A stretch of 64,000 nt of DNA, taken from Clostridia bacterium (GTDB taxonomy: Bacteria; Bacillota; Clostridia; Christensenellales; CAG-917). Position 1 is the first letter of the stretch; each line of letters starts with the position of its first letter. The position numbers and the translations under genes are program-made. The DNA lies in the NCBI GenBank assembly GCA_017553325.1, contig JAFZMH010000002.1, positions 62,001 through 126,000 on the forward strand, in the 5' to 3' direction. This document shows positions 14,878 through 17,303 of the stretch, one piece after another. The notes under the pieces were generated by a model. It saw nothing but the letters and a program-made list of their open reading frames with translations. It did no database searches and was not told where the DNA came from.

Positions 14878-14906
14878 TTGACATCAATCTTTAAAAAGTT
14901 TACTAT
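14878..14906 (+). promoter_or_regulatory. Promoter of the FMN-riboswitch operon
   Basis: TTGACA (14878-14883), a 17-base spacer and TACTAT (14901-14906) form a strong SigA promoter. Transcription would start just before the riboswitch. Confidence 0.8.
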
Positions 14907-14914
14907 ATAAAAGA

Positions 14915-15018
14915 ACTTTGGGGCAAGGTGAAAATCCTTACTGGCGGTATAGTCCGCGAACCTCTTGTAGGCCGAGTGGGTGAGACTCCCACACCAACGG
15001 TACAGTCCGGATGAAAAA
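14915..15018 (+). ncRNA. FMN riboswitch (RFN element)
   Basis: The conserved RFN core is readable throughout: GGGGCAAGGTGAAAATCC, ACTGGCGGTATAGTCCGCGA, GTGAGACTCCCAC, ACCAACGGTACAGTCCGGAT. FMN binding in this class usually lowers expression of riboflavin synthesis or uptake genes. The next gene encodes a RibU transporter domain, which fits. An ATG inside the last conserved segment (15011) is part of the aptamer, not the gene start. The expression platform follows immediately. Confidence 0.95.
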
Positions 15019-15033
15019 AGTTCAGACGTTTTT

Positions 15034-15058
15034 TGCTCCAAAGAAGGAGCATTTTTTT
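15034..15058 (+). terminator. Riboswitch expression platform: terminator that hides the Shine-Dalgarno
   Basis: TGCTCC, loop AAAGAA, GGAGCA (15034-15051) is followed by seven T's that run straight into the ATG at 15059. The right arm contains the ribosome site AAGGAG (15044-15049). The same hairpin can therefore stop transcription and block ribosome binding. An antiterminator partner would be expected in the 3' part of the aptamer. Confidence 0.85.
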
Positions 15059-16300
15059 ATGGCGGAAACAGCGACGACAAAAGAACAAAAAAAATTCAAA
15101 TCTTTTGACAAAAATACTTTCGGCAAGCACTCCGCGGCATACGTCACCAAAATGGCGATTTTGACGGGGTTGTCCTTTATCCTTTATGCGTTTGCAAAAT
15201 TCAATTTGCCGATATTCCCGAGCTTTTTGGACATTCAAATCTCCGAACTTCCGGCACTTCTCGCAGGTTTTTCAATGGGGCCGATAAGCGGATGCTTGGT
15301 CATAGTTTTCAAGTGCCTTATCAAGTTTTCCATGACTTCGACGGGTTTTGTGGGCGAAACTACGGACATTTTGCTCGGCATAGCGTTCGTCTTGCCTGCG
15401 TCCTTGATTTACAAGTACAAAAAGGACATAAAGCACGCGCTCCTCGGCTTGATTGTAGGGACGCTCGTTTTGACTGCCGCCGCAATCTTGGTCAACAGGT
15501 TTATTTCCGTGCCGTTTTTCGCCAAGATGATTGAACTGAACTCAAACGGACACGTCACGGACGGTTTTCAAGTCGTAGTAAATTCCGTCAGCACGCTATA
15601 TAAAAACGTAAACAAGGACAATTTCTATTTTTACTATTTGCTCGTCGGCGTGTTGCCTTTCAACCTGTTTAGATGTATAATCGTAAGCGGACTTACGTTT
15701 GCGCTTTATAAACGCCTCAGCAAGATATTGCACTGGAACGGCGAGAGCTGGAAAAAGAAACAGGACGAGTTTGCCGGCGGAGTTTTCACAGTGAAATCCG
15801 TTGAAGAAACCTACGACCTCGCCGAAAAACTCGCAGATATTTTGAAGGGTGGCGAAATCGTGCTCTTGAACGGCGACCTCGGCGCGGGCAAGACGACGTT
15901 CACGAAAGGACTTGCTCTCGCGCTCGGCGTCACGGAGGAAGTGACCAGCCCGACGTTTACGATTATGAACGTCTACGCAAGCGGAAGGCTCAAACTCAAC
16001 CATCTCGATATGTACAGGGTTGAAAACTCGGACGAACTCTACGAACTCGGCGTATCCGAAGCCGTCGGCGAAGAAGGCGCGGTCACCGTAGTTGAATGGA
16101 ACAAATTCGAAGACCTTGACGGAAATATTATATCTATAGATATAAAGACTCTCGGCGAGACTGAGCGCGAGTTTGAAATCTCTTTGCCAAAGCAGGCGGA
16201 GCAAGCGGAATCTTTGCATGAGGACGAAGCGCAAGCACCGCAAGCGCAAGAGGACGAAGTTCAGGAACAGATTGACAAGACAAGCAAGCAGGAAGAATAA
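15059..16300 (+). CDS. ribU-tsaE: RibU-TsaE fusion: riboflavin ECF transporter S component / t6A biosynthesis ATPase
   Basis: One uninterrupted 413-codon frame carries two unrelated domains. Residues 25-225 form a RibU-type membrane protein with about six hydrophobic segments (GLSFILYAFAKFNLP, ELPALLAGFSMGPISG), the substrate-binding subunit of an ECF riboflavin transporter. Residues 240-375 are TsaE, the ATPase needed to make t6A on ANN-decoding tRNAs: Walker A GDLGAGKTT (272-280), SPTF (297-300), Asp 317 in LDMYR and VVEW (344-347). An acidic tail follows. The start is set by AAGGAG at 15044. tsaB overlaps the stop by one base and rimI follows, the usual partners of tsaE. The RibU C-terminus is cytoplasmic in this family, so TsaE would be tethered to the inner face of the membrane. 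Confidence 0.93.
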   Translation: MAETATTKEQKKFKSFDKNTFGKHSAAYVTKMAILTGLSFILYAFAKFNLPIFPSFLDIQISELPALLAGFSMGPISGCLVIVFKCLIKFSMTSTGFVGETTDILLGIAFVLPASLIYKYKKDIKHALLGLIVGTLVLTAAAILVNRFISVPFFAKMIELNSNGHVTDGFQVVVNSVSTLYKNVNKDNFYFYYLLVGVLPFNLFRCIIVSGLTFALYKRLSKILHWNGESWKKKQDEFAGGVFTVKSVEETYDLAEKLADILKGGEIVLLNGDLGAGKTTFTKGLALALGVTEEVTSPTFTIMNVYASGRLKLNHLDMYRVENSDELYELGVSEAVGEEGAVTVVEWNKFEDLDGNIISIDIKTLGETEREFEISLPKQAEQAESLHEDEAQAPQAQEDEVQEQIDKTSKQEE

Positions 16301-16875
16301 TGAAAGCGATTTTGATTGACACAACTTCATCGGCTCTCACGGTGGCGTATTTCGACGACGAGCGCGTGCTTTTCAGCGTGCAAGAGGTGGGCAAGAGCGG
16401 ACATTCCGCCGTGCTTATGCCGACGCTCGACGCGCTTTTAAAAAACAACGGACTCAGAATCGACGCCGTTGACACGGTAGGCGTCGTGGTCGGTCCTGGC
16501 TCTTTTACCGGTATTCGCATAGGCGTTGCAACCGCTACCGCGCTCGCATTTTCCTTGAATGCGAAAAGAATTTCAGTCACGTCATTTGAACTCCTTGCAT
16601 ATAGTAGGCAAAAACAGGACGTGGCGGTTGACGCGGGACACGGAAATCTCTACGTGGCGCACGTCGAAAATGGCAAGGTGGTTTCCACCGACTTTATTGA
16701 CGGCGAAGCGTCAAAGAGCGTGGACAGGTCGAAGTTTGCGTTTGAACCCGTGGGCGACGTTGCAAATACGCTCGTGTCCGTTGCAAAAGAAAAGGCTCAA
16801 AACGGCGAGTACGTCAGCGTGTTTGAACCGTACTATATGCGAAAATCACAGGCGGAGAGAGAAAAAGGCTTATGA
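16300..16875 (+). CDS. tsaB: tRNA t6A biosynthesis protein TsaB
   Basis: TsaB is the scaffold partner of TsaD and TsaE in threonylcarbamoyl transfer to A37 of tRNA. The 191-residue protein has the ASKHA-fold N-terminus (ILIDTTSSALTVAYF), the conserved HSAVLMPTLDALL and the signature GPGSFTGIRIGVATA near residues 65-80. The C-terminal part is short and includes EPYYMRKSQAE. Its ATG overlaps the previous TAA as TAATG, so its translation is coupled to RibU-TsaE. TsaD is not in this window. Confidence 0.94.
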   Translation: MKAILIDTTSSALTVAYFDDERVLFSVQEVGKSGHSAVLMPTLDALLKNNGLRIDAVDTVGVVVGPGSFTGIRIGVATATALAFSLNAKRISVTSFELLAYSRQKQDVAVDAGHGNLYVAHVENGKVVSTDFIDGEASKSVDRSKFAFEPVGDVANTLVSVAKEKAQNGEYVSVFEPYYMRKSQAEREKGL

Positions 16876-17303
16876 GATTCGTGCGCTTGGAGTTTAAACA
16901 TTTAAGCCAAATGGCGGAGATAGAACGCGAAGCGTTCGAGATGCCGTGGACGGAGAATATGTTTATTCCCGAAGTGGAAGATCCTTCCGCCACCTACGTC
17001 GTGGGCGTGCGCGGCGAAGAGGTCGTGTGCTACGGCGGGTTTCACAAGGTGCTCGACGAGGCGCATATCACCAATATCGCCGTCAAAAGCACCGAACGCG
17101 GGCGCGGCATAGGCAGGTTTTTGATGGCGGAACTCATCTCGCGTGCGAGAGCGCTCAGCGTTGAGCGTATGACGCTCGAGGTCCGCGAAGGAAACGTGCC
17201 GGCAATCAAATTGTACGAAAGTTTCGGCTTCAAGGTCGAGGGTGTGCGAAAGAAGTATTACGACAACAAATTCGACGCTCTCATTATGTGGCTGATTTTG
17301 TGA
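16872..17303 (+). CDS. rimI: Ribosomal protein S18 alanine N-acetyltransferase
   Basis: This 143-residue GNAT protein acetylates the N-terminal alanine of ribosomal protein S18. The acetyl-CoA motif is in STERGRGIGRFLM, and the family context EIEREAFEMPWTENMF near the N-terminus and LEVREGNVPAIKLYESFGFK near the C-terminus match RimI. It overlaps tsaB by ATGA. rimI beside tsaB is common across bacteria, and all three reading frames here are translationally linked. Confidence 0.93.
   Translation: MRFVRLEFKHLSQMAEIEREAFEMPWTENMFIPEVEDPSATYVVGVRGEEVVCYGGFHKVLDEAHITNIAVKSTERGRGIGRFLMAELISRARALSVERMTLEVREGNVPAIKLYESFGFKVEGVRKKYYDNKFDALIMWLIL

Follow-up and report, generated by a model that had tools for sequence, protein, structure and literature searches.

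A gene that joins a riboflavin transporter subunit to a tRNA-modification ATPase lies within the 64,000-nucleotide stretch of Clostridia bacterium DNA analysed here (the window), where the S-component RibU and the ATPase TsaE of t6A synthesis are encoded as one protein. This is probably a real bifunctional gene, formed when the stop codon was lost between riboswitch-controlled ribU and tsaE neighbours, with each half still doing its ordinary job. Both parts are known, and what is new is their union, its recurrence and its riboswitch control. The initial annotation of the locus knew of no such fusion, and a literature search of open-access papers likewise found no published description of one. 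That annotation had not noticed the riboswitch, how widespread the unfused ribU-tsaE pair is, or the recurrent origin of the fusion, all of which are described below.

Architecture of the fusion gene

The features of the locus are as follows.

14878..14906 (+): sigma-70-like promoter TTGACA-17-TACTAT just 5' of the riboswitch; 10/12 consensus matches, a consensus match only
14910..15026 (+): FMN riboswitch aptamer (RFN element); Rfam RF00050, 107 bits, E 6.5e-24, full length
14916..14924 (+): predicted antiterminator 5' half CUUUGGGGC, within the aptamer's 5' part; base-paired to 15035-15043 in the minimum-energy fold
15034..15058 (+): terminator hairpin TGCTCC-aaagaa-GGAGCA (15034-15051) and T7 tail; abuts ATG 15059
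15059..16300 (+): RibU-TsaE fusion ORF; 413 aa, from ATG 15059
15143..15709 (+): RibU S-component domain, residues 29-217; Pfam PF12822; PDB 3p5n E 1e-20; Foldseek 3p5n and 5kbw TM 0.86
15710..15793 (+): linker between the RibU and TsaE domains; in-frame GTG 15791-15793 behind GGAG, a possible internal start that is not conserved in relatives
15794..16171 (+): TsaE P-loop ATPase domain, residues 246-371, Walker A Lys278; Pfam PF02367; TIGR00150
16172..16297 (+): C-terminal tail of the fusion, acidic, low-complexity; variable in relatives
16300..16875 (+): tsaB, t6A partner; TIGR03725 119 bits; start overlaps the fusion stop by one base
16872..17303 (+): rimI, next operon gene; TIGR01575 133 bits

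The open frame has exactly the coordinates first given for it, 15059-16300 on the forward strand, and an alternative ATG at 15011 lies within the riboswitch aptamer. Numbered from 15011, the Pfam matches fall at residues 45-233 for ECF_trnsprt (PF12822; 90 bits, 1.7e-25) and 262-387 for TsaE (PF02367; 2.7e-36), both well above their cut-offs, and by NCBIfam the second half is TsaE (TIGR00150, scoring 113 bits where the cut-off is 60). The best solved structure for the first half is S. aureus RibU 3p5n (phmmer 1.1e-20), with T. maritima RibU also among the closest, while the structures nearest to the second half are TsaE of T. maritima and of B. subtilis. The structure of the full-length fusion was also predicted (mean pLDDT 74.8, pTM 0.61; the relative placement of the domains is low-confidence and not to be trusted), and one part of the model matches RibU structures (Foldseek 3p5n, 4e-9, TM 0.86) and the other matches TsaE structures. 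Pfam, NCBIfam, PDB sequence and fold comparisons therefore agree with the original description of the locus as one uninterrupted frame holding a RibU-like domain and then a complete TsaE. The overlap of tsaB with the stop of the fusion was also correctly noted, the tsaB start at 16300 being the last base of the stop codon.

Within the TsaE half the motifs GDLGAGKTT, SPTF, HLDMYR and VVEW are intact, and K278, T279, H315, D317, Y319, R320, E346 and W347 are invariant in an alignment of 20 fused proteins. The E. coli homologue YjeE needs its P-loop Thr, Glu108, Tyr82 and Trp109 (PMC4330362), and the retention of the equivalent residues in the fusion counts for a complete TsaE half. In the RibU half, helix 1 carries AILTG (A33, G37), which resembles the AxxxA motif but has Gly for the second Ala, and which reads AILTA in several relatives; the helix-1 AxxxA motif serves for docking on EcfT (PMC11109136). 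The conserved N146 and N202 are retained, and the RibU of the window is of a type with an enlarged loop ahead of the last helix. Sequence alignment places Asn at the positions of N131 and N164 of S. aureus RibU and Arg at that of K167, three residues which we take to be ligand-related. Positive charges lie beside the first helix and the C-terminal end of the RibU half. Because S-components end on the cytoplasmic side, the fusion would tether TsaE to the membrane, and the tethering suggested for it at the outset thus follows from the fold.

Genomic context: t6A synthesis and riboflavin uptake

The genome assembly that contains the window is 97% complete, and absences from it carry a small risk. 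No second TsaE above the family cut-off was found in this genome, where the sole other match is sub-threshold at 20 bits. TsaD and TsaC are encoded elsewhere in the genome and TsaB directly 3' of the fusion, and the t6A pathway is probably complete with the fused TsaE as its only TsaE. The scenario, considered when the gene was first noticed, of a second intact tsaE beside a fused copy with inactivated motifs fails on both counts, as the genome has no such second copy above the cut-off and the fused motifs are intact. The genome also encodes one EcfT (E 1.1e-42), which is adjoined by two ABC ATPases that lie ahead of it in the usual order, EcfA-EcfA'-EcfT, as well as at least one other S-component. 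Lumazine synthase was not found in the genome by a search that, as a control, found it in 14 of 14 genomes. With no lumazine synthase and an Ecf module present, the cell probably depends on riboflavin import and is probably a riboflavin auxotroph.

Conservation of the fusion

The fused protein was used as a query against 100 related genomes, with matches throughout the window's genus and family, and the loci were then read individually. At least 33 of the 43 genomes of the window's family, a group of uncultivated Clostridia, carry the fusion in one frame, and these are independent assemblies. The other ten comprise two with fused-length frames (not fetched), two in which a gap in the assembly or the end of a contig interrupts the junction, two with separate genes and four with no match. 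The same architecture is found in several other families. Between the closest pairs of relatives, linker pN is 0.000 against a pS of 0.18 (L014/L031) and 0.042 against 0.34 (L025/L026). Such low pN relative to pS indicates that the linker evolves as coding sequence in the frame joining both domains and is under in-frame purifying selection at the codon level. That the gene is an artefact, whether a misassembly, a sequencing frameshift or a degenerate pseudogene, is scarcely credible against this recurrence of an identical architecture and the low pN/pS over the junction, and the concern raised in the initial annotation over a frameshift or misassembly at that point falls away on the same evidence. 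An N gap at the junction does occur in one relative (L030), a different genome from that of the window. An uncultured Christensenellaceae genome near the window's (L089) has a TsaE that is 64% identical. A genome of the same genus as the window (G016), itself 97% complete, has neither a TsaE above the cut-off nor a RibU-TsaE match, representing either a gap or a true loss of TsaE.

FMN riboswitch control

The fusion gene is preceded by an FMN riboswitch and a terminator. The minimum-energy fold contains a plausible antiterminator pairing that would compete with the terminator hairpin; shuffled leaders fold with much the same overall energy (z -0.08). The GGAG in the 3' arm of the terminator probably doubles as the Shine-Dalgarno sequence, with the T7 run as the spacer to ATG 15059. 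A hairpin followed by a T-run stands between aptamer and ORF at 25 of 28 fused loci, where shuffled sequences would give 0.8. Almost every fused ribU-tsaE pair and many unfused ones have an FMN riboswitch on the 5' side, with counts of 20 of 20 loci in one set and 18 of 20 in another that includes unfused pairs.

With riboswitch and terminator directly before the start of the sole tsaE, FMN should terminate the mRNA for the only TsaE of the cell. High FMN would thus lower the TsaE supply, as both halves share one mRNA and one start. Leakage, together with promoter-like sites inside ribU (15653-15681) and at 16272-16301, could soften or bypass this control. The second of these sites is a strong sigma-70-like sequence (11/12 match) where the fusion ends, directly ahead of tsaB, and could free tsaB-rimI from the riboswitch. 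A link between flavin uptake and the decoding of ANN codons, put forward in the initial annotation, finds support at the level of gene expression only, through the riboswitch and terminator that precede the sole tsaE.

Origin of the fusion

How did a transporter subunit and a tRNA-modification ATPase come to share one frame? The unfused ribU-tsaE pair is widespread in Clostridia. Unfused neighbours with an FMN riboswitch are found both inside the order and outside it, including in Thermovorax subterraneus (L087), Soehngenia longivitae (L088), Terrisporobacter mayombei (L157) and several MAGs, and the two-ORF pair is the probable ancestral state. At one locus (L045, genome G020) ribU and tsaE are in one frame with a lone TAA between the domains, which is either a near-fusion or a fusion that has re-split. 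These riboswitch-controlled neighbours and the in-frame stop mark the likely route of fusion, whereby the stop codon between ribU and tsaE, as neighbours in an FMN-riboswitch-controlled operon, would have been lost.

Two further loci, L173 and L174 (genus g88, family f32), have an apparent old tsaE start Met kept in the linker (NDLMQKI and NINMQKT; NDLMQKIITRSEEET and NINMQKTITRNEDET), suggesting younger fusions. In four genomes (G046, G048, G076 and G084) ribU and tsaE are arranged head to head, and are thus neighbours though the riboswitch of an inverted ribU cannot control tsaE.

The RibU and TsaE halves give conflicting trees. In the TsaE tree the window's family forms one group (support 90, not decisive), whereas in the RibU tree its genera g6 and g7 fall into a different RibU subfamily, alongside families f9, f20 and f31, and f32 g88 and f14 g47 fall into a third. 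Topology tests reject, for each half, a tree in which all fused proteins form one clade (p-AU 1e-41 and 8e-8), and likewise one in which the family's fused RibU halves do so. By parsimony the state changed 6 times along the TsaE tree and 9 times along the RibU tree, with at least 2 and at least 5 of these changes, respectively, forced by strong branches. The disagreement of the trees and the rejected single clades imply that either (i) fusion occurred several times, apparently with three RibU subfamilies, or (ii) RibU was swapped while in the fused state.

The long TsaE frames of f3 g70 and f28 g102 proved not to be RibU fusions, and a class-wide survey showed no TsaE frame above 255 aa among the matches listed (the best-scoring, from about 150 of 391 genomes, the window's own genome not among them). 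A separate locus, L172:963-2291(+), encodes a PAP2-superfamily membrane phosphatase domain fused to TsaE (Pfam), which is an unrelated membrane-protein::TsaE fusion in the same order, and a TsaE frame of similar length (444 aa) occurs in the same genus at G217:C8:3716-4099.

Mechanism and alternative explanations

The best explanation of the fusion is that each half would keep its ordinary activity, as the conserved motifs suggest. The RibU half would work as a normal S-component for riboflavin, docking on the EcfA-EcfA'-EcfT module that S-components share. The TsaE half, held on the cytoplasmic face by a short linker and able to meet TsaD-TsaB, would serve as the cell's only TsaE and reset TsaD-TsaB in t6A synthesis, with its supply following flavin demand. 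The association of TsaE with TsaD-TsaB is transient and ends once ATP has been hydrolysed (PMC9654439), with which a flexible tether is compatible. The selective reason for the arrangement may be no more than co-expression.

An alternative is that the fusion is a gene-expression arrangement only, in which an internal start at the junction, or cleavage from RibU, gives a free working TsaE. A scan for ATG, GTG or TTG 20-40 residues before Walker A at 42 fused loci found such a codon with an SD-like sequence at 14, and the window itself has GGAG and then GTG at 15791; at 16 other loci the codon lacks an SD, and at 12 there is no start codon at all. A start-like codon preceded by a strong SD (mostly GGGAGGG...TTG) recurs at the HWEGxSL motif in 12 of 26 close relatives, and TTG encodes the Leu of this motif 13 times where 4.4 are expected, but the TTG excess is as large or nearly so at three other Leu columns that have no SD. 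The candidate position also shifts between species, and the linker is under in-frame purifying selection. A conserved internal start as the general route to free TsaE is excluded by the 12 loci that lack any start codon, although internal initiation is possible, on these codon patterns, in some species. Under the best explanation the product would stay uncut, though cleavage by a membrane protease would leave no trace in the sequence. Taken as a whole, release of a free TsaE is an unlikely account of the fusion.

A physical coupling of the two halves, in which riboflavin binding or the toppling of RibU on EcfT alters the reach or ATPase of the tethered TsaE and so makes the protein a flavin sensor for t6A, like the related 5TMR receptors, is less likely still. 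It would suit a fusion that is repeated with three RibU subfamilies, linkers that are short in most species (about 7-20 residues), an S-component fold that serves receptors with soluble C-terminal domains (PMC11109136), and the joining of the unrelated PAP2 to TsaE in the same order. The linker varies in sequence, however, and reaches 82-89 residues in L046 and L049; the genes are separate in many relatives, some of them head to head; and no conserved interface is seen in the sequence, with the domain placement in the model of low confidence (pTM 0.61). The covalent joining of an ATPase to an S-component might also suggest that TsaE powers RibU, replacing the Ecf ATPases for riboflavin uptake. 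This is very improbable, and TsaE as a RibU motor is rejected, as the genome has a full EcfA-EcfA'-EcfT set and keeps the TsaE hallmarks, in its sole TsaE, along with TsaD, TsaB and TsaC.

A broader reading is that the ribU-tsaE linkage is selected for itself, since it survives RibU replacement and has repeatedly led to fusion into one protein. Flavin supply and t6A modification would then be functionally coupled, with FMN status setting t6A capacity and ANN decoding via the riboswitch and perhaps RibU. Such coupling is doubtful.

Relation to known systems and significance

The RibU half resembles the RibU of group II ECF transporters (3p5n, 5kbw) in sequence, in fold (TM 0.86), in its 5' FMN riboswitch and in that a shared EcfAA'T is encoded elsewhere; it differs in its enlarged loop before the last helix and in carrying a soluble enzyme at the C-terminus. 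As a rule, S-components end with helix 6, unlike receptors of the same fold that bear soluble domains (PMC11109136). In comparison with these 5TMR-type receptors (PMC11109136), the window protein shares an S-component-like membrane fold followed by a cytoplasmic catalytic domain, but it is a RibU-family transporter subunit whose effector is TsaE, with no kinase or cyclase. The second half is like TsaE (YjeE/YdiB; 5np9, 6n9a, 6s84) in all motifs, in its tsaB neighbour, in being the sole copy and in the presence of TsaD and TsaC. The usual form is free, soluble and of about 150 residues, whereas the fusion is membrane-anchored and under an FMN riboswitch. As it is fused to RibU and there is no separate tsaE above the cut-off, this half is a TsaE domain within a fusion and not a typical TsaE protein. 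The unfused pairs of Thermovorax (L087), Soehngenia (L088) and Terrisporobacter (L157) have the same order and FMN riboswitch, but as two ORFs.

For annotation there is a warning here, in that naming by best hit gives either RibU or TsaE and reports the other as missing. The repeated origin is a natural experiment in how neighbouring genes become one protein and in whether t6A can be made at the membrane. The E. coli enzymes cannot form t6A without TsaE, and accurate decoding of ANN codons depends on t6A. In this organism the only TsaE forms part of a vitamin transporter and lies behind a riboswitch that is expected to be off at high FMN, such that the cell either copes with a fluctuating t6A capacity or has its decoding regulated by flavin status.
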